This document shows, in pieces, positions 49,754 through 64,000 of a DNA stretch of 64,000 nt. The notes beneath the pieces are model-generated. The model did not search any database. It was not told the origin of the DNA and saw nothing but the letters and a program-made list of their open reading frames with translations. The DNA lies in assembly GCA_018436595.1 (NCBI GenBank), contig JAHDLC010000038.1, positions 1 to 64,000 on the forward strand, read 5' to 3'. The first letter of the stretch is position 1; each line of letters begins with the position of its first letter. The translations under genes were made by a program, and so were the position numbers. The stretch comes from Synergistaceae bacterium. GTDB taxonomy: Bacteria > Synergistota > Synergistia > Synergistales > Aminobacteriaceae.

Positions 49754-50545
49754 TCAGGCCGTGGGAAGAGGTGTTCCCTCCAGGGTGACGGCGATCTCCA
49801 CCCTTCCGTGGGGGTGATCTTCCTCCCCGCTTGGAAAGTACCGTTCGAGCACGCGCCCGTTTGTTCTTAATTCGTTTTGTTTCACCCACGCTAGAAGCTG
49901 CTCCAGAGTGGCCGGAACCGTCTCGTACGCTCCTCTGTGGAGCGAGACGGCAAGCACGCATTCCGGCATAATCTCCCCGCAGGGCTCCTCCGCCGGAATG
50001 CAGATCGTCGATCTGGCCGGTCCCTCGTGCAGATCGTAGAGGCAGAAAAGAGGCGCGTTCGCGCCGTCTTCTCCGAAGAGGCGTTTAGCTTCGGTACGCG
50101 CGATCTCGCGAAGCCGCAGTCTTTCGCCGGCCAGAGGGGCGGAGAGAACGCGCACCGGGGCGAAACGGGCCAGCACACACTCCTCCGGCCCCCGGTGCTT
50201 TTCGAGGTGCTCCAGCTCCTCCAGCGCCATCTTCATTGCCGCTATCTTCCGGGTGATCGACTCGCGCTGGGCAGCAACGCACTCTCCCCACTGCGCCGTC
50301 TCAAGTCCATTGAGAATCACGGCAATGTCGTCGAGTGAAAAGTCGGCCTGCCGCAACCGTCGCAGCAGCTTTGCTTCGATGAGCTGCGACGGCAGATAGT
50401 ACCGATACCCCGTTGCATTGTCGGTGAACGCGGGAACAAGGATATTCCGTTCCGCATAAAAACGAAGCATCCGGCTCGATAGGCCGCTCAGCTTCGCGAA
50501 CTGCCCTATGAGCAGTACGGACGGAAACGCTTCTCTCGTCTTCAT
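49754..50545 (-). CDS. MerR-family regulator with GyrI-like effector domain
   Basis: About 263 aa. The N-terminal MerR helix-turn-helix is LLIGQFAKLSGLSSRMLRFYAERNILVPAFTD with the wing ATGYRYY, then a dimerising coiled coil (residues 75-120). The C-terminal 140 residues resemble the BmrR/GyrI drug-binding domain (CVLAVSLHRGAYETVPATLEQLLAWVK). These regulators detect hydrophobic or cationic small molecules and untwist promoters with 19-bp spacers. Two such promoters lie nearby, so it probably controls its own operon and the Nif11-type precursor genes. Start ATG overlaps the upstream stop (ATGA). Confidence 0.9.
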   Translation of the reverse strand: MKTREAFPSVLLIGQFAKLSGLSSRMLRFYAERNILVPAFTDNATGYRYYLPSQLIEAKLLRRLRQADFSLDDIAVILNGLETAQWGECVAAQRESITRKIAAMKMALEELEHLEKHRGPEECVLARFAPVRVLSAPLAGERLRLREIARTEAKRLFGEDGANAPLFCLYDLHEGPARSTICIPAEEPCGEIMPECVLAVSLHRGAYETVPATLEQLLAWVKQNELRTNGRVLERYFPSGEEDHPHGRVEIAVTLEGTPLPTA

Positions 50546-50814
50546 GGGATGCTTCTCGGTTCCTGGCCTGCCGCGCTCAGCAGATCGACATCGTCATCGG
50601 AAAGTTCATCGTTCTTTCTTCGTCCCTCTTCTCCGGCCATGGCGAGCAGCTGCTCGCGGAGGTCGGCTAACTCGATGTTCCGCAGAAGGAGCATATCCTC
50701 CTCCTTTTTCAGGGAGGCCAGAACAGCGCTGACATCTCCGTCCCGCAAGGCGCTGCGGACTCGTTCCGGGTCCAGTCCGAACGAACGCAGCGACCGGCCG
50801 AACTCATCCATCAT
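50542..50814 (-). CDS. small protein with leader-like C-terminus, coupled to the MerR gene
   Basis: About 90 aa, no family recognised. Highly charged helical body (DPERVRSALRDGDVSAVLAS, ELADLREQLLAMAGEEG), then DELSDDDVDLLSAAGQEPRS, which resembles the acidic tail and Gly-containing cut site of RiPP leaders but with AG for GG. Starts at ATG 50814 after AGGGGGG; the in-frame ATG 50865 lies upstream of the predicted transcription start and is rejected. Four-base overlap with merR. It may be a cofactor for the regulator, an immunity protein or a precursor. Confidence 0.6.
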   Translation of the reverse strand: MMDEFGRSLRSFGLDPERVRSALRDGDVSAVLASLKKEEDMLLLRNIELADLREQLLAMAGEEGRRKNDELSDDDVDLLSAAGQEPRSIP

Positions 50815-50850
50815 TTTCCCCCCTTTGGATACCCGATTGAAAACGGCGTC

Positions 50851-50881
50851 ATCGTACACCTTCACACGATGTGAGAGTCAA
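50851..50881 (-). promoter_or_regulatory. MerR-type autoregulatory promoter, 19-bp spacer
   Basis: On the minus strand TTGACT (50881-50876) and TACGAT (50856-50851) are separated by exactly 19 bases. The spacer holds the dyad CTCACA/TGTGAA around TCG. The long spacer with an internal dyad is the hallmark of MerR targets; the core matches that of the promoter at 51002. Confidence 0.72.
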
Positions 50882-51001
50882 TCCTCCCGGATTTCTTCGA
50901 TGATCCGCCGACATCGGATGGGTGCCGTCAAAGTACACAAAGTATGCCATGAAGCTTTTTCTCCTTCAAGCAATCCAGGAACAAATTTTTAAATTTCGCA
51001 C

Positions 51002-51032
51002 TTGACATTGACACGATGTCAATGTCTATACT
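51002..51032 (+). promoter_or_regulatory. MerR-type promoter of the Nif11 precursor genes, 19-bp spacer
   Basis: TTGACA (51002-51007) and TATACT (51027-51032) with a 19-base spacer. A perfect dyad, GACATTGACA (51004-51013) and TGTCAATGTC (51017-51026) around CGA, fills the spacer and ends at the -10, as at merT or bmr promoters. Should be silent until the regulator twists it. Confidence 0.82.
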
Positions 51033-51073
51033 GTCCCAGAAGGGATTTTTTCGTTTTTGTATATCTTGGAGGA

Positions 51074-51349
51074 TTGAACATTTCTGCGGAATCTGCGGCA
51101 GCGTTCTACGGGCTTCTGGAAAAAAATCGGCACGACTTCACGCTGGAGGAGATGCAGAAAGTGATCTTCGGGAAGAATCCGGAGATGACCGACGAGGAAC
51201 TTGAGGCTGCCGCAGAAATTGCAGGTGTGTATATAACCTCTTCCGAAAAGGGAGAGCGTATAAAAGGAGGTCGTATTATATGTCGATGGAATCTGCAGCG
51301 GCGTTCTATGAGCGTCTCCAGAGTGACGCGACGCTTCAGGAAAACCTGA
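51074..51349 (+). pseudogene. decayed Nif11-type precursor paralogue
   Basis: The frame carries SAESAAAFYGLLEKN directly joined to HDFTLEEMQKVIFGKNPEMT. Compared with the intact gene at 51280 about 26 residues are missing between the two halves and the GG site is lost (EELEAAAEIAGVY). The codon aligned with the intact ATG reads ATT, while GGAGG upstream is kept; TTG 51074 is one base from that site and a poor substitute. The frame runs into the next gene out of phase. Confidence 0.65.
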
Positions 51350-51588
51350 AGGCGGCGGGGAACAGGGATCAGGTGGAAGCGTACGTGAAGGGGGAACTTG
51401 GTTATGACTTCACGAAGGAAGAGATGCAGAAGGTGGTTTTCGAACGGAATCCGGAGATGACCGACGAAGAGCTGGAGGCTGTCATCGGAGGAGCAAGCAA
51501 CGATATGATGTGGGGGATTACCATCGGCGTCGGCATCGGCGGTGGGCTGGGGATTATCGCCCTTGCGATCGCCGCTGCGGGTGCGTAG
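51280..51588 (+). CDS. Nif11-type RiPP precursor with Gly-rich hydrophobic core
   Basis: 102 aa. Leader residues 1-71 match the Nif11 domain (ESAAAFYERLQSDATLQENL, then YDFTKEEMQKV) and end MTDEELEAVIGG, a double-glycine export site at 70-71. The predicted core, 31 residues, begins ASNDMMWGITIGVGIGGG and ends in a hydrophobic, Ala-rich tail with GxxxG spacing and no Cys, suggesting a membrane-active peptide. AAAAGGAGG lies nine bases before ATG 51280. MerR-type promoter upstream; no modifying enzyme is immediately beside it, though the radical-SAM genes are 2.4 kb away. Confidence 0.88.
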   Translation: MSMESAAAFYERLQSDATLQENLKAAGNRDQVEAYVKGELGYDFTKEEMQKVVFERNPEMTDEELEAVIGGASNDMMWGITIGVGIGGGLGIIALAIAAAGA

Positions 51589-51641
51589 CGAAAAAAGAGA
51601 GAGAGGAAATCTTCAGGAACTGTCCGTTCCGTCGGGAAGAG

Positions 51642-51851
51642 ATGGAATTGTGGGAGATGACCGACGCTGAGCAGGAAGCTGCCGCAGGTGGAGGCCGGTT
51701 GTTCGAATTCATAGGACTGGTCTTCTTCGGCCTCCATGGGGTCGGGTACTACTCCCCGCGCCGGACCCACCGCCCCATCACCCTGTCGGCTTCGGCGAGG
51801 ACGAGCCACAGTTCCTGGATTGCGTTTATCAGCTCCGTCCTGCTTTTCTGA
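51642..51851 (+). pseudogene. second precursor remnant with double-glycine motif
   Basis: A plus frame 54 bases after the Nif11 stop reads MELWEMTDAEQEAAAGGGRL then FEFIGLVFFGLHGVGYYSP. The stretch before GGG mirrors the tail of the intact leader (MTDEELEAVIGG) and a hydrophobic core-like part follows, but the Nif11 body is missing and the frame continues antisense into the TolC-like gene. In the same frame, coding-like residues (EREEIFRNCPFRREEM) precede the ATG. Likely a truncated third copy. Confidence 0.4.
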
Positions 51852-53005
51852 TCGGCTTCCTGCGCTGTGATCAGGTCAAGCTGGGATCCCAGCCCCTCGC
51901 GGTACATCATCTCGGCGATCTCCAGCTCCTTGTCGGCCCGCTCGGCCTGGCGGCGGCGGATGGTGACGATTTCGAGCGCCCGTCCCCATCGTTCGCGGAC
52001 GAGCTCCGCCTCCTTCTTCAGGCTGTCGCGCCTCGCCTCCAGTTCGTACTCGGCCTTTCGGAGAAGCAGCGCGGCCGCCTCGGTTGTGTTGGCCGTTTCC
52101 CCCCCGTCTGTCAGGGGAACTGTCAGCACGGCGCGGACGAAAACCTCTCCGGCCCTCTCATCGGCGATGGCAGAGGAGGAGTCCTGTCTCACCCGCAGCC
52201 CGACGGAGAGGTCAACGAACGGAGAGAGCCCCTTCGCGGCGAGCGAGCGCTGTACGGAGGCGCGTTCCCTGGAGAGCATAAGCGAGGCGACGTCCGGACG
52301 GAGCCCCCATGCCTTCTTCTCGTCGATGTCGGGACGCAGTTCCTCGAGTTGGGGGAGCATGATCTCCGGCGTGACCGAAACTCCCCCTGCCAGGGCGCTC
52401 ATCTCGACCAGCTGCTGCTCGTACTTCTGGCGTGCCTGGAGGAGAAATGCTTCGCCGTCATCAACCTGCGACTGAGCCCGAAGCAGCTCCAGCAGGGAGA
52501 CCAGCTCCTTGTCGAACTTCTCGCGGGTGATCAGCATCGACTCGCGGCGCTTTGCCACGATCTGCTCCATCGCCTCCCGGTTCAATGCAGCCATCACCGC
52601 CTGGCGGTAGGCGGACGCGGCGAGGGCGAGCCGTTCGTTGACCGCATCGGCGTACTGGTTCCGGAGAATCTCGACTCCGAGGAGAAGGTCCCGTTCCTGG
52701 AGTCCGTAGGTTCCCGAGAGGTTGACGCGGTGGGAGAGGGAAAGATCGATCTGCTGATCGCCCCGTTCCTGGTCGAGCCACTTGCTTGCCTCGGCGGAGA
52801 GCCCAAGAGAGGGGCGCTGAACGGAAAGCTCCGCCCTGGCGGAGAAAAGCCGCGCCTCGATCTCCTGGCTGATCGCAGCAAGGTCGTTGTTTCGCTCCAT
52901 CACAAGCGCCAGGTACTGTGCTTCCGAAATCGGCGCGGAGAAGACCGCGCCGGGAAAGAGAAAAAGAAGCGCAGGCAGTGCGGCGAAGAACATGGTAAAT
53001 TTCAT
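51749..53005 (-). CDS. TolC-like outer-membrane efflux protein
   Basis: About 418 aa. Signal peptide (FFAALPALLFLFPGAVFSAP), then two OEP repeats rich in long amphipathic helices, each with the family's RE..L/ALA pattern (LGLSAEASKWL, NQYADAVNERLALAASAYRQ, GLRVRQDSSS, KEAELVRERWGRALEIVTIRRR). ATG 53005 lies five bases after GGAGGATCC; the frame extends upstream without support. A trimeric outer-membrane channel for the adjacent peptide exporter is the probable role; an HlyD-type adaptor is not in the window. Confidence 0.88.
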   Translation of the reverse strand: MKFTMFFAALPALLFLFPGAVFSAPISEAQYLALVMERNNDLAAISQEIEARLFSARAELSVQRPSLGLSAEASKWLDQERGDQQIDLSLSHRVNLSGTYGLQERDLLLGVEILRNQYADAVNERLALAASAYRQAVMAALNREAMEQIVAKRRESMLITREKFDKELVSLLELLRAQSQVDDGEAFLLQARQKYEQQLVEMSALAGGVSVTPEIMLPQLEELRPDIDEKKAWGLRPDVASLMLSRERASVQRSLAAKGLSPFVDLSVGLRVRQDSSSAIADERAGEVFVRAVLTVPLTDGGETANTTEAAALLLRKAEYELEARRDSLKKEAELVRERWGRALEIVTIRRRQAERADKELEIAEMMYREGLGSQLDLITAQEADQKSRTELINAIQELWLVLAEADRVMGRWVRRGE

Positions 53006-53178: not shown

Positions 53179-53610
53179 GTGAAAAAAGAAACCAAATCAC
53201 TGCCGGAAACGCTGCAGTCTGATCATATTGCAGGATTTTTTGGGGGAAACCCGGTTCTGCAGCTGTTCAGCGAGCCGCTGATTGACAACACTGCCAAGCT
53301 TTGTCATACTATTCCGGTATATTCTATCGACTTGGTCGGCCTTTGAAAAGCGGATATTTTGCTCTCCGACGAATCGCTGGAATCTGTTTTCCCCGGAACG
53401 GCCATCGTTCAGAGGTCTTTGATCGGGACTGTGAATGTGGTGCGCAAGAAGCAGATGACGGCCGCCTATTTTCTACCGGTATCTTTGTATTATAGCCAGA
53501 CGCAGGTTCATAAATCGATCGGTTGGTATTTTATATCAATTCGATTTCAAGTATTGGCTGAGGCATTGTACGTTTCAGCCAAAATACTCAACAAAGGAGA
53601 ACGGATATGA
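53179..53610 (+). pseudogene. reading frame interrupted by one in-frame TGA, upstream of the second precursor
   Basis: GTG 53179 (after AGGAAAAGG) opens 55 coding-like codons (KKETKSLPETLQSDHIAGFF) to a TGA at 53344. The same frame goes on with KADILLSDESLESVFPGTAI and ends at 53610 in an ATGA overlap with the Nif11 start. The second part resembles a leader tail. No family recognised. It could be a broken gene or two short ORFs that share a frame by chance; a candidate promoter lies inside it. Confidence 0.35.
53282..53312 (+). promoter_or_regulatory. candidate promoter with 19-bp spacer before the second precursor
   Basis: TTGACA (53282-53287), 19 bases, TACTAT (53307-53312). GACAA (53284-53288) and TTGTC (53301-53305) form a short dyad across the spacer. 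The spacer length recalls the two MerR-type promoters at 50.9-51.0 kb, but the dyad core differs and it is 300 bases from the precursor. Confidence 0.4.
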
Positions 53611-53876
53611 CGATTGACAGCGCAAAGGCATTGGCTGCAAAAGTTTTAACGGACGAAGCTCTGGCGAAAAAATTGGGTGACGCGAAAACCGAGGCGGAAT
53701 TTAATGCGGTGGTTGCAAAACTGGGGTACACCTGCACAGCGGTGGAATTTGAGGCTGCCTTCAAAGAGGCACAGGAAAACACGCCACTCACTGATGAGCA
53801 GCTGGACCAGGCGTCCGGCGGTTTGAGCATTGTCGGTGTGGATTACGCATTTGTAGCTGTTCAAACATCAAAATAA
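53607..53876 (+). CDS. Nif11-type RiPP precursor with 17-residue core
   Basis: 89 aa. Nif11 leader residues 1-72 (DSAKALAAKVLTDEALAKKL, TEAEFNAVVAKLGYTCT) end in LTDEQLDQASGG with the double glycine at 71-72. The predicted core is LSIVGVDYAFVAVQTSK: five Val/Ile-type residues in the first eleven, one Tyr, a C-terminal Lys and no Cys, so thioether bridges are excluded within the core. AAAGGAG precedes ATG 53607. It heads a run of four radical-SAM genes, with a hairpin between them that should keep precursor mRNA in excess. GC and codon use are lower than in flanking housekeeping genes. Confidence 0.88.
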   Translation: MTIDSAKALAAKVLTDEALAKKLGDAKTEAEFNAVVAKLGYTCTAVEFEAAFKEAQENTPLTDEQLDQASGGLSIVGVDYAFVAVQTSK

Positions 53877-53910
53877 ACGAAGGGGGTTTCCCTCTTCACG
53901 AGCAGTAGCG

Positions 53911-53939
53911 GCGGAGACCGGAAATTGTCCGGTCTCCGC
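53911..53939 (+). terminator. attenuating hairpin between precursor and radical-SAM genes
   Basis: GCGGAGACCGGA (53911-53922) and TCCGGTCTCCGC (53928-53939) form a perfect 12-bp stem with a five-base loop. No T-run follows, so partial termination or mRNA 3' protection is expected rather than a full stop. Confidence 0.7.
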
Positions 53940-53959
53940 TTCAGGGCGGAGGCAATCAC

Positions 53960-55711
53960 GTGGAGGTACTTTTTATAAAATCGCATCGCTATGTCAGCGG
54001 CTATATTCCCGGAAGCAACCTGGGAATGAACATATTGATACAATTGCTGACACGAAAAGGATATTCAGCCCGGATGTACCAGGGCTATGCCAAAGAAGCC
54101 CTGAATTATGTGAAAGAACTCATGGACAGCGAGGACCGGCCGAAAGTCATCGGTTTTTACTGTGATTTCGACAATGTTCACTGGGTGAAGACCTTTGCGC
54201 GGGAAGTGAAAAAAGAGTACCCCGAAGTGATTCTGCTGGCAGGCGGTCCTCAAACTGTCGACATGGACGCCGTTTTTTTTAAAGAGACGGGTATTGCCGC
54301 TGTCTGCATCGGAGAAGGGGAAGAAACGGTTCCGGAGCTCATGGAGTTTTTCATCCATCATCGCGGTGCTCTGGAGGCGATCCAGGGAATAGCGTTTCTG
54401 GACGCCTCGATGGAGCTTGTGAAAACACCCCCGAGAACCCCGCCGGAGGATCTGGATGATATTCCCTGGCCGGACATCACCTTGACCAACGATTATAAGC
54501 ACTACGCGCTTCTCCCCATTTTAACCGGACGGGGCTGTCCTTTCGGATGCACCTTCTGTTACGAGGGGGCCAATGCCAAACGGGTGCGCCGCCACTCGGT
54601 TCCCTCGCTGATGAAGGAAATAAGGGCGAATTTTAAACGCAATCCGGACATAAAGTATATTAATTTTCTTGATGACACTTTTACGCTGGATTCAAAACGG
54701 GTCCGTCAGATTTGCGAAGAGATCAGAGAAATCCGGAAAGAATATGATTTCGTATGGTTTGCCAGCGCCCATATTTCACTCATCGACAAACACCGGGACA
54801 TGGCACGGAATCTGGCGGAAGCAGGGCTGAAAAAAATCTTCTTCGGTCTGGAATCCGGCAGCGACGCGGTTTTACAAAGCTATAACAAGAAAATAACCCG
54901 GAAAATGGCGGTGGACGTCATCGAGCATTGCGTTGCATCGGGTATTTCCGCTATTTCCGGCAATATTATCCTGGGAGGTCCCCACGAAACCCGGGAAACC
55001 ATTCGGGAATCCGAAGATCTGATCATGGAACTGCTTCACCGGGCGCCGGGGCAGTTTGAAACCGCCTATTTCTCCTTTCTGCCTTTTCCCCAAACGCCTA
55101 TTACGATGAATCCTCAAAAATTCGGGATGGAAATTTACGGGGACCTCATCGACTGCTGCAACGAAGACATTCCTCTATCAGGAACGAAAACGCTGGATTT
55201 TCTCGATCTTACCCAGATTCGGCTTGAGGCCAACAGGCGACTCCAGAATGAAATGCGGAAGATCTATCTCGACGGAAAGATTCCCGAGGCCGTGATTCTG
55301 GATGCGTACCGTTCAGGAGGGCGCTACGGAGTGTTTACCCGCTGGAACGACTATGTGTACAAAAATCTGCCCATTGACGATGCCTACTGGAAAATGCGGG
55401 TTTTCGGCGGGTATGCCGTCAGCAGCCAACTGGGAGCTTGCCAGGAGGACGCCATCCCGCACCGGACCTTCGAACTGTGGCTGTATACCGACATCGGCGG
55501 GGAAAAACCGAAGATTTTCGATACAGTTCTGGACGAAATAGACTATACCCTTCTTCAATTATGCAGCGGGAAACTCTCGAAACGGGAAGTACTTCAGCAG
55601 GGGAAAATGATGCTTGACCCTTCGGGGTGCCGGCCTGATTTTTACACACGGGCGGAAGAATCGCTGAATTTCCTGGAAAAGAAGAAATGGATTCTCTACC
55701 AGAAAGCATGA
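53960..55711 (+). CDS. B12-binding radical SAM RiPP maturase (module 1)
   Basis: 583 aa. Residues 1-150 form a cobalamin-binding-like Rossmann domain (VIGFYCDFDNVHWVKTFARE, ILLAGGPQTVDMDAVF, CIGEGEETVPELMEF) without DxHxxG. The radical SAM ligands are C193, C197 and C200 (GRGCPFGCTFCYEGAN), followed by FLDDTFTLDSKR, KKIFFGLESGSDAV and GNIILGGPHETRET. The last 60 residues (DYTLLQLCSGKLSKREVLQQ and onward) resemble a PqqD-type winged helix for leader binding. GTG 53960 follows GGAGG at seven bases. Likely modifies the upstream 17-residue core; C-methylation is a known activity of B12 relatives, epimerisation or cyclisation are alternatives. Confidence 0.87.
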   Translation: MEVLFIKSHRYVSGYIPGSNLGMNILIQLLTRKGYSARMYQGYAKEALNYVKELMDSEDRPKVIGFYCDFDNVHWVKTFAREVKKEYPEVILLAGGPQTVDMDAVFFKETGIAAVCIGEGEETVPELMEFFIHHRGALEAIQGIAFLDASMELVKTPPRTPPEDLDDIPWPDITLTNDYKHYALLPILTGRGCPFGCTFCYEGANAKRVRRHSVPSLMKEIRANFKRNPDIKYINFLDDTFTLDSKRVRQICEEIREIRKEYDFVWFASAHISLIDKHRDMARNLAEAGLKKIFFGLESGSDAVLQSYNKKITRKMAVDVIEHCVASGISAISGNIILGGPHETRETIRESEDLIMELLHRAPGQFETAYFSFLPFPQTPITMNPQKFGMEIYGDLIDCCNEDIPLSGTKTLDFLDLTQIRLEANRRLQNEMRKIYLDGKIPEAVILDAYRSGGRYGVFTRWNDYVYKNLPIDDAYWKMRVFGGYAVSSQLGACQEDAIPHRTFELWLYTDIGGEKPKIFDTVLDEIDYTLLQLCSGKLSKREVLQQGKMMLDPSGCRPDFYTRAEESLNFLEKKKWILYQKA

Positions 55712-57396
55712 AAAGGCCGCCCCTCGTTCTCCTCGTGTACACCCAGCGGCTTGTTCCGGGGCGAACCTTTGAAATGATCGGGAACCTGGGGGTTCTCACC
55801 CTGGCGGCCCAGCTCAATGCCGGCGGCTTCGACGCAAAAGCCTATACCGGTATCACCACCGATGTCGTTAAAACCATCGGAGGAATAAAAGACCGCCTGT
55901 TCGCTGTCTGTTTTTACTGCGACTTCGACAATCAGTCGGCGGTGGCAGCCATTATCAATGATCTGAAAAAAGAAGCCGGAAATGCCTTTTACGTAGTGCT
56001 GGGAGGACCGCACACGCTGCACATGACGGAACGGGATCTGGAAAAATACGGCGCGGACGCCATCATCAAGGGAGAAGGGGAAGAATCCCTGCCCGCATGG
56101 CTGGGGGCGCGCATTTCGGGAGAAACGGCCGCCGTGCCGGGAGAAATCCTTCCCCATGAGAATCCGGAGTACGTCTATCTGGAGGATTTCTCTCACTATC
56201 AACTGCCACAGGATGAAGCTGTGCCGGATTATTCGGAGAGACCCCTGATGTCGGTGATAACGGCCAGAGGCTGTCCCTACCGGTGCGCATTCTGTTTCGA
56301 AGGCGGCAATTCGAAAAATTTGAGAATGCGGACTGCGGACGATGTGTTGTTCGAAATCGAAACACGGCTGCAGAAAAGCCGGGGTCCCCGGTACCTGTTT
56401 TTTTGCGACGACACCTTCACCGCCAATCCTCAAAGGCTGGAAAAGCTGCTTGCAGGATTGAGACGCCTTCGAAAAAAACTTGATTTTGTCTGGTTCTGCG
56501 AAGGGCATCCGGGGTTTCTTTCACAACGCCCGGAGCTGATCAAAGAAATGATGGAGAGCGGTATGGTCCGGATGCAGATCGGGATGGAGTCCGGAGCTGA
56601 TTCCGTTCTTCAGGCCTACGGGAAGCAGGCCGTCCCGGAGGACGTGAAGAATGTTGTGGATACCTGCTACCGAGAGGGACTGCCCCAGCTCGCAGGAAAC
56701 TTTATCATCGGCGGGGCCTTTGAAACTCCGCACACCCTCGAGGCAACCACCCGTTTTGCCCTTGACCTGCTCGAGCGGGCTCCGGGGATGCTGGATTTAT
56801 CCACTACCTTTCTGACGCCGCTGCCGGGTACCCTGATCTCCGGGGATCCCGGGCGTTTCGATATCGTGCTGGAAGACCAGGACTGCCTCACCTCAATGGA
56901 GGATTTTCCGGTGAACCGAACCCGGGAGCTGTCCCTGCCGGAAATATGCAGGGCACGCTCCGCCTTTCTCACACGCGTTTCGAACACCATGAAAGAGCAG
57001 TTCAGGAACGGCCGGATTCCCGAAAGGCGGATTCGCCGTGACTTCGAGCTTGCCTTTCGATATGGCATCGCGGCGGGGTACCTGAAGTTTATCTACGGCC
57101 GGAACCCGGTCATGGTGAGTTACTATCGAAAACTTACGGAGTACCGGGGGCTTTTGAAGGAATGGGAGGAGCTTGAAGGTGCTCAAAAGGAACGGTATGT
57201 CATCCAGCGCATTCCGGATTTTTCGCAGGTGGATTTCGAAAGCCTGAACGGGATGGAATCGGAAATTCTTCTGGATGCAGGTTTGTATTCGGTGGACGAG
57301 ATGGCGAAGAAGCTGGCCGTATCGGCTGAGGAAATGGCCGTGTACCTTGAAGGACTGAGCCGCCGTCATCTGGTGTTATTTTCCCCCTGCCTCTGA
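55708..57396 (+). CDS. B12-binding radical SAM RiPP maturase (module 2)
   Basis: About 562 aa, same plan as module 1. Rossmann part (VCFYCDFDNQSAVAAIIN, VVLGGPHTLHMTERDLEK, IKGEGEESLPAW), radical SAM ligands C189, C193, C196 (ARGCPYRCAFCFEGGN), FFCDDTFTANPQR, RMQIGMESGADSV and GNFIIGGAFETPHT. The C-terminal end (SEILLDAGLYSVDEMAKKLA, then VYLEGLSRRHLVLF) is the winged-helix-like part. ATG 55708 overlaps the previous stop (ATGA); ATG 55687 is possible. Divergent from its neighbours, so a different reaction or site is likely. Confidence 0.86.
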   Translation: MKRPPLVLLVYTQRLVPGRTFEMIGNLGVLTLAAQLNAGGFDAKAYTGITTDVVKTIGGIKDRLFAVCFYCDFDNQSAVAAIINDLKKEAGNAFYVVLGGPHTLHMTERDLEKYGADAIIKGEGEESLPAWLGARISGETAAVPGEILPHENPEYVYLEDFSHYQLPQDEAVPDYSERPLMSVITARGCPYRCAFCFEGGNSKNLRMRTADDVLFEIETRLQKSRGPRYLFFCDDTFTANPQRLEKLLAGLRRLRKKLDFVWFCEGHPGFLSQRPELIKEMMESGMVRMQIGMESGADSVLQAYGKQAVPEDVKNVVDTCYREGLPQLAGNFIIGGAFETPHTLEATTRFALDLLERAPGMLDLSTTFLTPLPGTLISGDPGRFDIVLEDQDCLTSMEDFPVNRTRELSLPEICRARSAFLTRVSNTMKEQFRNGRIPERRIRRDFELAFRYGIAAGYLKFIYGRNPVMVSYYRKLTEYRGLLKEWEELEGAQKERYVIQRIPDFSQVDFESLNGMESEILLDAGLYSVDEMAKKLAVSAEEMAVYLEGLSRRHLVLFSPCL

Positions 57397-57548
57397 GGCA
57401 CCGTACATGTGAGCGGTTCTGCAGGCAGTATCTGAAGATGCGAGCGATCCTGTCGGCCGGATGCCTGCCCTGACGTGGGCGCCGGGGGAGGTTTCTCGAA
57501 GGGCCGGCAGCAGGTTGCGCATAATTATTTAACATTCGGAGGCGCGGC

Positions 57549-60500
57549 GTGAAAACGATCAACCTGAGACTGATGCTGATTCATCGCGGAACGAGAACCC
57601 ATTCGATCACCCAGATCGAGCCCATCGGTCTTATGTCGCTGGCGGAGATGATGACCGGCAAGGGGATCGAAACGGCCGTTTTTTCAGGAGAGCTGCTGAA
57701 AGGCCTGGAATTCCTGAACGCGGCTGGCTGCAGCCGGAACACGGTAGTGGGATTATATTGTGATTACGAGAATCAGTCGGCGGTCGAGAGTTTTTCCAGG
57801 GTGGTCAAGGAGCGTTTCGGCGCCGTCGTTCTGGTGGGCGGACCCCAGACCGTGGGGCTGGGAGAAGAGTTCCTGCGGGCGAGCGGGGCTGACGGGATCA
57901 TGCGGGGCGAAGGGGAGTACTCGCTGCACGACGCTCTCCGCGCATTGGAAGAAGACCGGAGGGACCTGTGGGAGACCATCCCCGGGATGTGTTCGTTCAG
58001 AAAGGACGGGACCTGGTACGACAACGGGATCTATCCCGTCATCGAGGATCTGGACGCCGTCCCCGGCATTTCGGGAACCATAAAATCGGCCCAGCACCGC
58101 GGCATCAATCACATGGCGGTGATGACGGGACGGGGGTGTCCTTTCCACTGCTCTTTCTGTTACGAGGGGGCCAACAGCAAGAACGTCAGGCAGCGCAGCG
58201 TGGCGTGCGTCATGAAGGAAATACGCCGGCGCCTGCGGGAGAATCCCAATGTGAAGTATCTCTTTTTCTGCGACGATACCTTCACCCTGGATATGAAACG
58301 GGTGCGCGCCTTTTGTGATGAACTGAAAGAGCTGAGGAAAGAGCACGATTTCGTCTGGTTCGCCGACGCCCATGTGAACGTGGTCATCAAATATCCCGAA
58401 ATGGTGAAGATGATGGTGGACGCCGGCCTGGTCCGGATGCAGATCGGCATTGAAAGCTGCAACCAGCACATCATAGACATCTATAACAAAAACGTGAAAC
58501 GGGAAGGGTTCTTCGAAGTCATTGAGATATGCAAAGCGGCCGGACTTCCGCAGCTGGTGGGCAACATCATCATCGGCGGGGCTCTGGAAACGCGGGAAAC
58601 GCTGAATTTTACCTTCGACACCGTCTATGAGATGCTGCGCGCGGGCCGCGGAATGGTGGAAGTGGTCAGCACTTTTTACATGCCCTTTCCGGAAACCGCC
58701 ATGTCAAAGGATCCCGGCGGGTACGGCCTTTTTGTGAGGGACGAAAAGGCGCTCACCTCGGTGGGGGATTTTCCGGTGATCGAGACGGAGACACTGAGCA
58801 TCGAAGAAATCTGCGCGGCCCGAAACGAGTTTTTTGAAGGGACGACCGGAGTTATGCGGAAAATGTTCCGCGACGGCGAAATCCCGGACGAGACCGTGCT
58901 GAAAAGCTGCGAGCTGAGTGAAAAATACGGTCTCAGCGGGATGTGGCAGAGTCTTGCGTACGCCAGATACCCCTATTTCGACGCCCAGAACAAGGCGCGG
59001 GTCCGCGGGGATAAGCTCACACGGGACTATGATCTTTCAACGGTGTTTGAAACCCATCCCCAGCGCATTGCCCTGCTTTCCCTGACACCTGAGCTGGCGG
59101 CGGAAATTCCGGTCCTGAACGGATTTGTCTACTCGCCCTTTGAATTCGACGTCCTGACGTACACCTCCGGCAAACTGTCCATGCTCGAAATGGCGGAGGC
59201 GCTTTTCCCCAAGTATCAGACGAGCTTCGAAAGTTTTGAGATGTTCAGGCTCCATCTGCTGGAAACCGTCAAAAAACTGGAAGCGGCGGGAATGTGCGTG
59301 CTGTCCGGCTCATTGAAGCCGAAAGCGGCCGATCTGGAATGGAAAAATCAAAAACACTCAGAGGAGCGCCCTGTGAAAAACAAGGTCATTCTGTTCAAAG
59401 TATCGACCATCAGTATGGAGATAGCCGGCTTCAGCCGAAACGGAGCCTTTCTGGGACTCTACAGCCTGGTAAGCTACCTGAATGAAAAAGGGTATGACGC
59501 CGTTGCCTGCGAATGCAGGCCGGACCAGGTCACGGAGCATCTTCGGCGGCTTCCGTCCGGTGAAATATGCTGCGTCGGTTTTTCGGTGGACTTCGAGAAC
59601 AGGCACGCAGTGAAAAAAATCAGCGCTTCCATAGCGGAATCCTGCGGGATACCTGTGCTGATCGGCGGCCCCGAAGCTCTTTCTCTGGATGAGGAGTACC
59701 TGCGCGGATCAAAGGCAGCCGCTGTCGTGCGAGGCGAAGGTGAACTGGCCATGGCGGCGGTACTGGATGCATTGAAAGAAAAGAAGAGCCTCGGTGATAT
59801 TCCCGGAATCTTCTTCATCGACGAAAACGGGAAGTGCATCGACAGGGGAGAAGGGCCGGTGGTGGAAAATCTTGATGAGCTGCCCTTCCCTGACTACGAT
59901 AAAACCATGACGCCCATTGATTACTCCAACCTGTACATCATGACCAGCCGGGGCTGCCCCTATCACTGTGTCTTCTGTCATGAAGGCGCCCTGAAACGGC
60001 CCGTTCGCCGGCGGAGCGTCGCGAATGTCGTCGCTGAAATGCGCTCCCTGCTTCTCAAATATCCGGAACTTCGCTACTTTTTATTCTGCGACGACACCCT
60101 GGTCACCAGCCCCGAATGGTTGGATGAATTTTGCCGGGAGGTAAAGGCGCTTCAGGCCGTCAGACCATTCCAGTTCTATTGCGAGGCTGATGTCGCTTCC
60201 CTGAGCAGACGACCCGGGGTCATTAAGGACATGGTGGCGGCGGGGCTCAACAGGCTGCAGATCGGCATAGAATCCGCCGACAGGGAGATGCTGAAGACAT
60301 ACCGCAAAAACATCACTCCCGAAATGGTGGAAACAGTGGTGAAAGCGGCGTATGACGCCGGAGTCCAGCAGGTTTTCGGCGCGATCCTGGTGGGAGGGCC
60401 CTTCGAGAACCGCGGGCATATCGAAAAGAACAAAGCCTTCTGCGCAAAGCTGCTGCGGCTGGGGCCGGGGATGATGGAAATCGCACCCAGTATCCTGATG

Positions 60501-61139
60501 CCCTATCCAATGACCGATATCGGGCAGCACCCCGAAAAATACGGGCTGACGATTTACGACAGGCAGGGGCTGAGAAGCATCTCCGATTATCCCCTCATGG
60601 AGAGCGAAACCATGGATCGGCGGGAGATCATGGCAGCCTACCAGGAGTACATTCAGAGCTTTGTGGACGAAGTGAAGGCGATGCTGAACAGCGGCGAGCT
60701 CGGCCATGAGGATCTTCTGCGCTGTCACCGCGCCTCCATGAATTCAAAGGGAGCGAAATACTGGGTGAATATCATAGCCCACCATAAACCTTTCCTCACA
60801 ACCTATTACACTCTGCTGGCACGGGAGGCAGCCTACCGCATCGCGGATGTGAAGCCGGATGAGCTTCCCGGATGGCGCCCCCAGCGGCTGATCGAGATGT
60901 GGCGGGATGTGGATTTTTCCCGGGGCTATCCTCTCGTGCGGGGAGAGGCGCTGTCGCCTTTTGAATACGAGGTGCTGAAATACTCCACTGGAAAGAGCAC
61001 CATCGCCGATATTGCCGGAATCCTCCACGAGCGGTTCGGAAAGCCGTTCGGAGAAACCCGGGAAGAATTGATGGAGAGAATCATTGAAACCTTGAAGGCT
61101 TTTGACGGAAAATACTGGCTGCTTGTCGTTCCGTACTAG
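57549..61139 (+). CDS. tandem fusion of two B12-binding radical SAM modules (modules 3 and 4)
   Basis: 1196 aa, twice the usual length. Module 3 (1-605): VVGLYCDYENQSAVESFSR, ligands C197, C201, C204 (GRGCPFHCSFCYEGAN), FFCDDTFTLDMKR, RMQIGIESCNQHI, winged-helix-like end YSPFEFDVLTYTSGKLSMLE. Module 4 (609-1196): CVGFSVDFENRHAVKKISA, ligands C803, C807, C810 (SRGCPYHCVFCHEGAL), FCDDTLVTSPEW, RLQIGIESADREM, end LSPFEYEVLKYSTGKSTIAD. Between them GAGGAG (59361-59366) stands seven bases before an in-frame GTG (59373), a relic or working internal start. GTG 57549 follows GGAGG. Confidence 0.86.
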   Translation: MKTINLRLMLIHRGTRTHSITQIEPIGLMSLAEMMTGKGIETAVFSGELLKGLEFLNAAGCSRNTVVGLYCDYENQSAVESFSRVVKERFGAVVLVGGPQTVGLGEEFLRASGADGIMRGEGEYSLHDALRALEEDRRDLWETIPGMCSFRKDGTWYDNGIYPVIEDLDAVPGISGTIKSAQHRGINHMAVMTGRGCPFHCSFCYEGANSKNVRQRSVACVMKEIRRRLRENPNVKYLFFCDDTFTLDMKRVRAFCDELKELRKEHDFVWFADAHVNVVIKYPEMVKMMVDAGLVRMQIGIESCNQHIIDIYNKNVKREGFFEVIEICKAAGLPQLVGNIIIGGALETRETLNFTFDTVYEMLRAGRGMVEVVSTFYMPFPETAMSKDPGGYGLFVRDEKALTSVGDFPVIETETLSIEEICAARNEFFEGTTGVMRKMFRDGEIPDETVLKSCELSEKYGLSGMWQSLAYARYPYFDAQNKARVRGDKLTRDYDLSTVFETHPQRIALLSLTPELAAEIPVLNGFVYSPFEFDVLTYTSGKLSMLEMAEALFPKYQTSFESFEMFRLHLLETVKKLEAAGMCVLSGSLKPKAADLEWKNQKHSEERPVKNKVILFKVSTISMEIAGFSRNGAFLGLYSLVSYLNEKGYDAVACECRPDQVTEHLRRLPSGEICCVGFSVDFENRHAVKKISASIAESCGIPVLIGGPEALSLDEEYLRGSKAAAVVRGEGELAMAAVLDALKEKKSLGDIPGIFFIDENGKCIDRGEGPVVENLDELPFPDYDKTMTPIDYSNLYIMTSRGCPYHCVFCHEGALKRPVRRRSVANVVAEMRSLLLKYPELRYFLFCDDTLVTSPEWLDEFCREVKALQAVRPFQFYCEADVASLSRRPGVIKDMVAAGLNRLQIGIESADREMLKTYRKNITPEMVETVVKAAYDAGVQQVFGAILVGGPFENRGHIEKNKAFCAKLLRLGPGMMEIAPSILMPYPMTDIGQHPEKYGLTIYDRQGLRSISDYPLMESETMDRREIMAAYQEYIQSFVDEVKAMLNSGELGHEDLLRCHRASMNSKGAKYWVNIIAHHKPFLTTYYTLLAREAAYRIADVKPDELPGWRPQRLIEMWRDVDFSRGYPLVRGEALSPFEYEVLKYSTGKSTIADIAGILHERFGKPFGETREELMERIIETLKAFDGKYWLLVVPY

Positions 61140-61153
61140 AAAAAGGTGATGCG

Positions 61154-62866
61154 ATGAAGATTCTTCTCTGCAACGTATCGAAAAAGTACGATACAAACAC
61201 CCATGATTATGTGGGGCTTTTTTACCTGGCGGGCGCCCTGGAAGAGGCCGGCTTTGAGCCTTTGGTGTTTCATGGAAAGCCGGAACATCTCCTGGACGAG
61301 ATAGAAAAGAACAAGCCCCGGGCGGTGGGTTTTTCCTGTGATTTCGACAATGTCCGGGTCATCGAAGACCTGTCAGGGAAAATAAAGAAGCGCTGGGGAA
61401 TTCCCGTTGTTGTGGGCGGGCCCCAGAGCATTGCTCTGGGAAGGGATTTTCTGGAAAAAAGCGGGGCTGACTATATCCTGCGGGGCGAAGGCGAAGTCTC
61501 TCTGCCCAGACTGCTCGATGCGGTCCTGAAGGATGAAGGGGATGTCGACGGGGTGAAGGGGCTGGCGAGAATTCAGGACGGAGTGTTTCTGGAAAACCCG
61601 CCCGAGATCATCGAGGATCTGGATGCTCTGCCCCTGCCGGCGTACTCAGCATCGCTGCATGCGGACCACGCCTACGGCAACTTGATTTTTACCGGCCGGG
61701 GGTGCCCCTACCGGTGCGCATACTGCGCCCCCAGCCCCGGCAAGCGGAAGGTTCGCCTGAGAAGCATTCCGCTGGTACTGGAGGAAATCAAAGTCAATCT
61801 GAAAAACAATCCGGGGCTGAAGTGCCTGATCGTTATGGACGACACCTTCACTCTCGGCCGGGAGCGGATCGAAGAATTCTGCCGCGGCATGACGGAGCTG
61901 CGGAAAGAGCGTGACCTGGTCTGGTACTGTGAATGCCATGTCGGCCGAATCAGGGACTTTATGGATATCCTGCCCGCCATGATCGACGCCGGGCTGATCC
62001 GTCTGCAGATCGGGATAGAATCAGGTGATCAGAACGTCATCGACCAGTACAACAAGCACGTCAAAATCGACGACATCGTTGAATTTGTAACCTACGCGGC
62101 CGACTGCGGCCTCGCCCAGATCGCCACAAACTTCATCGTGGGGGGGCCCGCAGAAAAAGACGGGGCGACCGCCTCGCTGATCCGGACCCTGATCGATCGG
62201 GCCCCCGGAGTCATCGATATCATTACCGGTTTTTTACGGGCCTACCCGGGGACCGAGATCTTCGAGAACCCGGGAAAATTCAACCTGCAGCTCCATGACG
62301 AATCCGGCCGCCGGACCGGGGACGACTACCCGTTCGTAACGCCGGTCGGATGCAGCCAGGACCAGGTGATGCGCCAGCGCCAGGAACTCAACAGGGTGAT
62401 TCGCCGCAGCATGCAGCAAAAAATCAAACACCGCGGGCTGAAAGAGGACGCGGTGAGGAAGCAGTTCGAAGCCGCATTCAAATACGGGATCCGAAGCCGG
62501 TGGTTCGCGGAAATTTCGGCCAATCCCAGGGCCTACGAATATTATTATGTGCTTTTTTTGAACGAGGGCCAAGCCTTTGAGGAATCCCTGGATTTTTCCA
62601 GAGATTATCCCCAGCGGACCTTTGAATTATGGCGCGCCATGACGTTTTCCGACGGATTTCCGCAGCTGGACGGTATGGCGCTCTCGCCGCTGGAGTATGA
62701 ACTGCTGTTGCGCTGCGCCGGCAAACGAAGCCTGAAGAAAATTCAGACCGAGCTTTATGAGGTGTTCGGCGGCTCGTATGAAAACGAGAGGGAATTCCAT
62801 CGGCAGCTCATCGATATGCTGCATCGTTTTGATTCTAAATACTGGCTGACCCATTTCGTGGTGTAG
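61154..62866 (+). CDS. B12-binding radical SAM RiPP maturase (module 5)
   Basis: 570 aa. Rossmann part (AVGFSCDFDNVRVIEDLSG, VVVGGPQSIALGRDF, LRGEGEVSLPRLLDA), ligands C184, C188, C191 (GRGCPYRCAYCAPSPG), VMDDTFTLGRERIEEF, RLQIGIESGDQNV and NFIVGGPAEKDGA. It differs from the others after the cluster: CAPSPGKRKV replaces the C[YFH]EG pattern. The C-terminal winged-helix-like end reads LSPLEYELLLRCAGKRSLKKI. ATG 61154 follows AAAGGTG, 14 bases after the previous stop. Last gene of the operon, convergent with the exporter. Confidence 0.86.
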   Translation: MKILLCNVSKKYDTNTHDYVGLFYLAGALEEAGFEPLVFHGKPEHLLDEIEKNKPRAVGFSCDFDNVRVIEDLSGKIKKRWGIPVVVGGPQSIALGRDFLEKSGADYILRGEGEVSLPRLLDAVLKDEGDVDGVKGLARIQDGVFLENPPEIIEDLDALPLPAYSASLHADHAYGNLIFTGRGCPYRCAYCAPSPGKRKVRLRSIPLVLEEIKVNLKNNPGLKCLIVMDDTFTLGRERIEEFCRGMTELRKERDLVWYCECHVGRIRDFMDILPAMIDAGLIRLQIGIESGDQNVIDQYNKHVKIDDIVEFVTYAADCGLAQIATNFIVGGPAEKDGATASLIRTLIDRAPGVIDIITGFLRAYPGTEIFENPGKFNLQLHDESGRRTGDDYPFVTPVGCSQDQVMRQRQELNRVIRRSMQQKIKHRGLKEDAVRKQFEAAFKYGIRSRWFAEISANPRAYEYYYVLFLNEGQAFEESLDFSRDYPQRTFELWRAMTFSDGFPQLDGMALSPLEYELLLRCAGKRSLKKIQTELYEVFGGSYENEREFHRQLIDMLHRFDSKYWLTHFVV

Positions 62867-62957: not shown

Positions 62958-64000
62958 CTATACCGTCTGCCTGCGGACCAGCTCTGCGAAAAGACCGTCC
63001 TTCGCCATCAGCTCGTCGTACTTCCCCTCCTCGACGAGCCGGCCGTCCTCCAGAACGCAGATCCGGTCCGCTCCGATGACAGTGGAGAGCCGGTGCGCAA
63101 CGACGATGCGCGTCGCCTGGATGTTCTCCAGGCTCCGGCTGATCATCGCCTGCGTTCTGTTGTCCAGGGCGCTCGTAGCCTCGTCGAAGATGAGCACACG
63201 CGGCTTCCCGGCAACGGCGCGGGCGATCAGGAGGCGCTGCTTCTGTCCGCCTGAAACCGTGTTCGCCCCGTCCGTGATGACCGTATGAATCCCCATGGGC
63301 ATCGCGGCGATGTCCTCTTCCATCCCCGCCGTGCGAAGCGCATCCTCTATCTGCCCGGCCGTGAGATTGCGCGAGCAGCGCACGTTGGAGGCTATGTCCC
63401 CGGAGAGCAGTCCGCCGCTCTGGAGGACGACGCCGATCTGCCGCCGCAGTTTCCCCAGGTCCAGTTCGGCAATGTCCTTGTTGTCGTAGAAGATGCCTCC
63501 CGACTCCGGCTGGTCGAAACCCAGGAGCAGCCGGATAAGCGTGGACTTGCCCGCCCCGGAGGGACCGACCACGGCGACGAACTCCCCTGCCTCAATGTGG
63601 AGGTCAAGTCCTTTCAGCACGGGAGGGCCGTCCTTCAGATAGCGGAAGACAACCCCTTCAAGGTCGATACGACCTGTGATTTCGCCCGGGTCGGTCTTCA
63701 TGTCGCCGGTCTCGGGCTCCGCCCGGAGGATGGGTGCGAGGTTCTCCACCAGCGGAAGCATGTTCAGCGTGGCTGTAAACGAGCTGACCATCTGAAAGAA
63801 GGCCCCTTGCAGCGCCCCGAAGGCCGACCAGAAGGCCATGAAGCGCCCCGTTTCGTACGAGGCGTCCGCAGCGCTCCAGCGGACAAGGGCAAAGAGAATA
63901 ACGATGGCGACGGAGAGGGGGAAGAGTGCCATGACCGTGTTCAGAAAAACTTCCAGCCGTCTCGCCTTCGTCCCCAGCATCCGCTGCGCTCCGAACAACT
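62958..64000 (-). CDS. NHLP-type peptide-export ABC transporter, C-terminal part (runs off the window)
   Basis: At least 346 aa; the gene continues past 64000. End of the membrane domain (MALFPLSVAIVILFALVRW, LNMLPLVENLAPILRAEPE) then the ATPase with VVGPSGAGKSTLIRLLLG, the Q-loop region GVVLQSGGLLSGDIASNV, signature VSGGQKQRLLIARA and VLIFDEATSALDN, H-loop VVAHRLSTV. The ATPase features match the exporters paired with Nif11/NHLP precursors (NHLM family), one of which carries a C39 peptidase that cuts after GG. Whether this copy has that domain or is its peptidase-free partner cannot be seen. Presumed exporter for one or both precursors. Confidence 0.85.
   Translation of the reverse strand, partial: LFGAQRMLGTKARRLEVFLNTVMALFPLSVAIVILFALVRWSAADASYETGRFMAFWSAFGALQGAFFQMVSSFTATLNMLPLVENLAPILRAEPETGDMKTDPGEITGRIDLEGVVFRYLKDGPPVLKGLDLHIEAGEFVAVVGPSGAGKSTLIRLLLGFDQPESGGIFYDNKDIAELDLGKLRRQIGVVLQSGGLLSGDIASNVRCSRNLTAGQIEDALRTAGMEEDIAAMPMGIHTVITDGANTVSGGQKQRLLIARAVAGKPRVLIFDEATSALDNRTQAMISRSLENIQATRIVVAHRLSTVIGADRICVLEDGRLVEEGKYDELMAKDGLFAELVRRQTV

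Follow-up and report, generated by a model that had tools for sequence, protein, structure and literature searches.

Among the promoters of bacterial peptide clusters one whose −35 and −10 hexamers lie nineteen base pairs apart, with an inverted repeat between them, raises the question of whether a MerR family protein works it, and if so which one and over how many genes. The promoter considered here (P1) lies in a 64,000 nucleotide stretch of a Synergistaceae bacterium, the whole of which is called the window, and positions beyond it are those of its contig (C20). With high confidence, based on sequence comparisons within the genome and across the phylum, P1 is a MerR-activated promoter and the MerR/GyrI protein encoded next to it is the pathway-specific master switch of a Nif11-type RiPP island. 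The regulator very probably turns on the whole peptide-making and export island, and the product of that island is probably thioamidated.

Direct reading places TTGACA at 51002-51007 and TATACT at 51027-51032 with a 19 bp spacer (51008-51026) between them, just as a preliminary description of this DNA had it. That description also had a perfect 10 bp dyad exactly filling the spacer; the perfect arms stand but the exact filling does not, since the dyad begins four bases before the spacer, inside the −35 hexamer, and runs to the last base of the spacer, and so its centre (51015) is shifted upstream by 2 bp from that of the spacer (51017). Promoters of the MerR family have spacers of 19 to 20 bp with a palindrome between the boxes, and kinking and under-twisting of the DNA realign −35 and −10 (PMC9909328, PMC8113463); P1 has both the spacer and the palindrome. 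To call the geometry diagnostic for MerR was however too strict, because a LacI family protein is cited in the review PMC9909328 as acting within a 20 bp spacer. By count, TTGACA-N19-TATACT with up to two mismatches is expected 0.68 times per 64 kb window and occurs twice, P1 being the sole exact match, and dyads with arms of at least 10 and a loop of up to 4 are expected 0.35 times per window (20 first-order Markov simulations), therefore the P1 dyad alone is unremarkable and it is the placement that counts. When three mismatches are allowed, the 25-mer TTGACATTGACANNNTGTCAATGTC still occurs in the 3.2 Mb genome at P1 only, its two matches being one palindrome read on two strands. A search of the plus strand from 50000 to 53000 found no sigma-70 promoter with a 16 to 18 bp spacer. 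An early terminator at 51033-51046 (a weak hairpin and then T) was considered and dropped because the stretch is not conserved in the two relatives L026 and L027. The features of the locus are collected below.

Features of the P1 locus and of the distant part of its putative regulon (window positions unless a contig is named)
Feature	Position	Strand	Remarks
MerR/GyrI regulator, 263 aa	49754..50545	-	PF13411, PF00376, PF09278, PF06445
Small protein, 89 aa, candidate co-regulator	50542..50811	-	conserved; overlaps the start of merR by 4 bases
P2, second MerR-type promoter	50851..50881	-	TTGACTCTCACATCGTGTGAAGGTGTACGAT, 19 bp spacer; immediately ahead of the small ORF and merR
Possible basal promoter of the merR operon	50941..50969	-	TTGAAG, 17 bp, CATACT; agrees with the consensus at 8 of 12 bases
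P1, MerR-type promoter of the Nif11 precursor gene	51002..51032	+	direct reading, alignment with two relatives, in-phase −10 in related sites
P1 operator dyad	51004..51026		GACATTGACA-CGA-TGTCAATGTC; perfect 10 bp arms, 3 bp centre
Remnant of a first Nif11 precursor	51080..51220	+	no GG site
Intact Nif11-leader RiPP precursor, 102 aa	51280..51588	+	under P1; GG and then a hydrophobic core
TolC-like outer-membrane protein	51749..53005	-	convergent to the precursor gene
NHLP export ABC2, last gene of the P3 run	C20:62958-65897 (window end 62958..64000)	-	
P3, third operator	C20:74821-74851	-	outside the window, 23.8 kb from P1

What P1 precedes is one intact precursor gene and not the precursor genes, in the plural, of the preliminary description. 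The intact product scores 58.8 bits against the TIGR03798 leader model (cut-off 32.3), whereas the frame at 51080 has no ATG, GTG or TTG start in register, lacks 24 internal codons of the intact precursor and gave no family in Pfam or NCBIfam, staying under the TIGR03798 cut-off, and for these reasons is taken as a remnant. A second remnant may be seen at 51657-51760, where a further Nif11 leader is represented by its end alone, the GG and hydrophobic tail included (MTDAEQEAAAGGGRLFEFIGLVFFG). The TolC-like gene beyond has no operator before it by a relaxed pattern run over the whole genome.

The regulator lies where the preliminary description put it, about 0.5 kb off and facing away, the start of its gene on the minus strand being 457 bp from P1. 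It has an N-terminal MerR winged HTH (PF13411 at 49.6 bits with a cut-off of 21.6, PF00376 at 44.1 with 28.2) and a GyrI-like C-terminal domain (PF06445, 29.4 bits, cut-off 26), and no other MerR-HTH protein was found in the 3.2 Mb genome, two HTH models each matching it alone. The modelled monomer (mean pLDDT 79.5) shows the winged HTH, a long helix at residues 83-116 and a GyrI-like fold from residue 124 to 255, which in Foldseek matches BmrR, EcmrR, CTR107 and CtaZ; by sequence and fold EcmrR and BmrR are the nearest solved relatives. Over the whole chain the TM-scores, taken by query length, are only 0.36-0.44; a misplaced orientation of the domains in the predicted monomer could explain such low values. 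A TipA-class identity was rejected, as the Pfam matches include no TipAS domain and have a GyrI-like one instead; the N-terminal domain of TipA matches the HTH part of the regulator only. With its GyrI-like domain the regulator would suit a small molecule or a peptide as ligand. In one syntenic orthologue (genome G045) the MerR protein stops after 137 residues and the DNA beyond reads, in a different frame, as a protein of no relation; the GyrI domain, kept in five of the six orthologues, is hence truly missing there. Drug sensing thus lies outside the conserved core, and because G045 has the small ORF along with a GyrI-less MerR, a role of GyrI in ligand sensing is taken as provisional.

How far the regulator might reach was addressed by running a relaxed 27-mer (up to three mismatches) over the whole genome, which gave three distinct sites, P1, P2 and P3, and none for the backward control. 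All three have a 19 bp spacer and all lie within the peptide island; P2, P3 (outside the window) and the small partner protein had not figured in the preliminary description. P2 is aligned and kept in L026 and L027, and by its position the regulator would control its own operon. The TTGAAG-17-CATACT element is likewise aligned in both relatives, scores below the threshold of the promoter scan, and possibly serves as a basal promoter of the merR operon. P3 is followed on the same strand by genes for an asparagine-synthase-like protein, Nif11, YcaO, TfuA, Nif11, HlyD (of the NHLM type), ABC1 (with a C39 peptidase) and ABC2, presumably a continuous operon, although about 290 bases separate HlyD from the gene ahead of it. 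The exporter genes of this run exceed the cut-offs of TIGR03794, TIGR03796 and TIGR03797, and the YcaO-TfuA pair (C20:71522-72934), with Nif11 on both sides, exceeds those of Pfam at 214.7 bits for YcaO and 102.8 for TfuA. Three of the four Nif11 precursors over cut-off genome-wide are found behind P1-P3 sites. The asparagine-synthase-like ORF (G000:C20:74766, equal to L034:14767) opens with residues like a Nif11 start, REVLRMCMESAASLF, as though a deletion downstream of P3 had merged a precursor into it.

Comparison across the phylum speaks to the pairing of site and regulator. The 27-base pattern with up to one mismatch finds sites in 9 of 185 Synergistota genomes and its backward control in none of the 185, the 27-mer and 24-mer patterns having themselves been built from the first sites seen, and all six genomes with the MerR orthologue are among the nine (chance 1.6e-9 if kinship is ignored). 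G072, G034, G056 and G009 have orthologues that are 43-87% identical over most of the protein, and that of G045 has 50% identity over the HTH part; in each of the six genomes some of the sites are within a few hundred bases of merR. The cognate regulator is thus nearby and co-inherited, with exceptions in G039, G053 and G071. When the window is aligned with L026 ('Synergistaceae bacterium isolate LM3-B13.2', whose sites are the same as those of G072 contig C63) and L027 (in G034), P1 hardly varies over its 31 bases, and in both relatives the counterpart of P1 precedes Nif11 peptide genes. In another family (L030, G045) a divergent site precedes YcaO, TfuA, an asparagine-synthase-like gene and a Nif11 peptide with a core nearly the same as that of the window, and there too a convergent TolC gene comes next. 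The four other genomes of the window's own genus gave neither regulator nor sites, so the island is patchy. Distant MerR genes of the phylum (L010, L011, L016, L020, L022, L023) are near 19 bp sites with different arms, and so operator arms seem to follow the regulator; the weaker scan matches near such genes were left out of the site counts.

The spacing was itself put to a test in which the −10 box was dropped from the search pattern to avoid circularity. The 59 matches, less two palindromes read backwards (P1 in G000 and in G072), leave 57 sites, and A2 and T6 of a −10 box stand exactly 19 bp from −35 in all 57 and at 15, 16, 17, 18 or 20 bp in none. A 17 bp reading of P1 was rejected on this result and on the lack of any 16-18 bp promoter there. 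So strict is the 19 bp spacing that the site can be used to predict response genes in relatives. Since the adjacent protein is the sole MerR found in the genome, operators recur beside its orthologues and the spacing is 19 bp in 57 of 57 sites, it is taken as the controller; a MerR-type promoter before a RiPP precursor, most probably under the adjacent MerR/GyrI protein, is hence backed by comparative genomics and not by geometry alone.

Two readings would deny the regulator this part. The dyad could be a chance one, or P1 a constitutive promoter with an odd spacer, and the expectation of 0.35 such dyads per window would permit it, but P1 is nearly invariant in three genomes, three sites were found in the genome against none for the backward control, and there is no 16-18 bp alternative, all of which makes this very improbable; chance origin of the dyad was rejected on the same conservation, together with its rarity in genome and phylum. 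Another transcription factor could also act on the dyad with MerR as a bystander, as the three site-bearing genomes without an orthologue would suggest: G039 (99% complete, five sites) gave no MerR-HTH protein and no small partner, G053 (one site) has only other MerR proteins, and in G071 (85% complete, five sites) no orthologue was found. Sites are present in all six orthologue genomes, near merR, and with the invariant 19 bp geometry, and against these a bystander role for MerR is improbable, if somewhat less so than chance.

The sites of the relatives extend beyond peptide genes. The phylum scan gave 55 rows of sites, with 52 distinct 80-base stretches, as one identical stretch was merged and two G056 sites were outside the scanned set. 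For 54 of the rows (G056:C51:21300 being left out) the downstream genes were classed by comparison with reference proteins from the same loci, the labels being Pfam or NCBIfam matches of representatives, and this gives 22 sites before beta-helix genes, 13 before RiPP or exporter genes, 4 before the regulator operon, 3 before MinC-like genes, 2 before FapA-like and beta-helix genes, 2 before a 51 aa GG peptide and beta-helix genes, and 8 before none of the reference set, these eight including three that are closer than 190 bases to the end of a contig. The beta-helix label rests in L092 on repeats, with no Pfam match, and the L072 representative has a Synerg-CTERM match slightly below cut-off. 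Beta-helix repeat families were seen in L069, L072, L076, L077, L087 and L091 (genomes G072, G034, G056 and G039), many of their genes having a 19 bp promoter of MerR type of their own; L091 (G039:C1:80000-99900) has five promoters of the operator type, although its genome, which is nearly complete, gave no MerR-HTH match. A MinC C-terminal domain with a different N-terminal part stands directly behind the operator in three genomes (L064, L074, L081). Genes for NHLP-leader peptides follow the same operator type in L066 (TIGR03793), L073 and L080 and are, going by their leaders, a second leader class of the regulon.

Also kept with the regulator is the 89 aa product of the ORF that runs into merR. 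It has no match in Pfam or NCBIfam, is predicted to form two short helices and one long, with block pLDDT values of 86-93 up to residue 60, and its fold gave no structural neighbour at E below 0.001; the C-terminal segment resembles, by eye only, the end of a Nif11 leader. A profile built from its six relatives matches in precisely those six genomes that have the MerR orthologue (6 of 185), and in G056 its gene is behind an operator and ahead of exporter genes. Because it tracks the orthologue and persists in G045, where MerR lacks GyrI, it is proposed as a probable co-regulator, with confidence that stops somewhat short of even.

These observations bear on two further readings, both of which keep the MerR-type promoter. 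The small protein could be the true switch and MerR mainly a DNA-bending arm, with the small protein binding MerR and carrying the signal, for example through competition with the leaders of precursors, or by retaining MerR until the machinery for the peptides has become active. Its occurrence in the same six genomes, its retention in G045, its place in G056 and its predicted helices would all suit such a role, yet its likeness to a leader is seen by eye only, it has no structural neighbour at that E-value, and the GyrI domain is kept in five of six orthologues, so we regard this as unlikely though worth keeping in view. A shade more doubtful is the idea that the main role of the regulator in the group is with surface proteins (beta-helix, MinC-like and FapA-like), the RiPP genes having been recruited to it. 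The 22 of 54 sites before beta-helix genes, with the FapA-like, GG-peptide and beta-helix, and MinC-like cases, argue for it; against it none of the three sites of the window's own genome is before a beta-helix gene, the beta-helix matches there being on another contig, and the divergent sites adjoining merR (L026, L027, L030 and the window) face RiPP genes. Rather speculatively, MerR and an obligate small helical partner may coordinate modified peptides with beta-helix surface proteins and a MinC-like protein in several Synergistota, at up to 15 promoters per genome and with the sensor domain optional.

With the MerR/GyrI protein as activator, which is the preferred reading, a dimer would bind the P1 dyad and the like sites at P2 and P3. 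In the off state the 19 bp spacer would leave −35 and −10 misaligned for RNA polymerase, and on switching on, most likely by a compound in the GyrI-like domain, the spacer would be kinked and untwisted. The precursor, the asparagine-synthase-like, YcaO and TfuA enzymes, the NHLP exporters and the regulator would then be expressed together, with a positive loop through P2 that is possibly started from the basal 17 bp promoter (50969-50941). As to the compound, the modified peptide itself or a molecule derived from the precursor is a likely candidate, though at less than even confidence; a competitor's compound or another signal may act instead. Closthioamide is a thioamide, and CtaZ is a resistance protein. 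The structure of CtaZ with closthioamide (7zhd) shares the GyrI-like fold that makes up the C-terminal half of the regulator (TM 0.68 by target length), and from this likeness, and from the YcaO-TfuA pair nearby, it is plausible, and nothing beyond that, that the ligand is a thioamidated product. CtaZ is free-standing, without the DNA-binding domain of the regulator, and the fold does not imply that the domain of the regulator binds thioamides. A literature search on CtaZ and closthioamide found nothing.

Regulators of the BmrR and EcmrR type control an efflux pump, in contrast to the RiPP precursor, modifying enzymes and exporters, spread over several promoters, that are the putative targets here, and they differ further from the present system in that a conserved small protein is co-encoded and one syntenic orthologue is without GyrI. 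Shared with them are the MerR winged HTH, the GyrI-like C-terminal domain and a pseudo-palindrome in a 19 bp spacer (PMC8113463, PMC9909328), the 19 bp spacers of EcmrR and BmrR being given in PMC8113463; the predicted long helix may correspond to their dimer helix. Thiostrepton-induced and autoregulated TipA is again a MerR family protein with a MerR-type promoter of its own and a possible link to modified peptides (PMC7762955), but it serves resistance, whereas the putative targets here are biosynthesis genes and the effector domain is GyrI-like and not TipAS. The TIGR03798 leaders, exporter genes and TfuA/YcaO pair are those of known Nif11, YcaO-TfuA and NHLP clusters, to which an asparagine-synthase-like enzyme and a MerR regulon are added here. 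PMC8120280 shows a TfuA cluster whose precursor is related to Nif11; a term search of its main text found neither MerR nor Synergist. A literature search, short on subscription journals, found no MerR regulator of Nif11 or NHLP peptides. The parts are of known kinds, and their combination, of MerR/GyrI and a small partner over a RiPP island, with surface proteins in relatives, appears to be new. The known MerR regulators for the most part switch a single resistance promoter or a few of them. One acting as dedicated master switch of a peptide island would give a handle for waking silent clusters, because the site defines the regulon and the ligand can be screened for with a simple reporter.

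The fourth Nif11 precursor of the genome (53607) lies upstream of the B12-radical-SAM genes (53960-62866) and has an ordinary 17 bp promoter-like match before it. The stretch from 53607 to 62866 holds this precursor and then four genes for radical SAM proteins that bind B12, one of which is 1196 aa long and has two modules; three of the four were scanned, none reaching an NCBIfam cut-off. Between the precursor gene and the first radical SAM gene there is an inverted repeat with 12 bp arms (53911-53939), possibly an RNA element.
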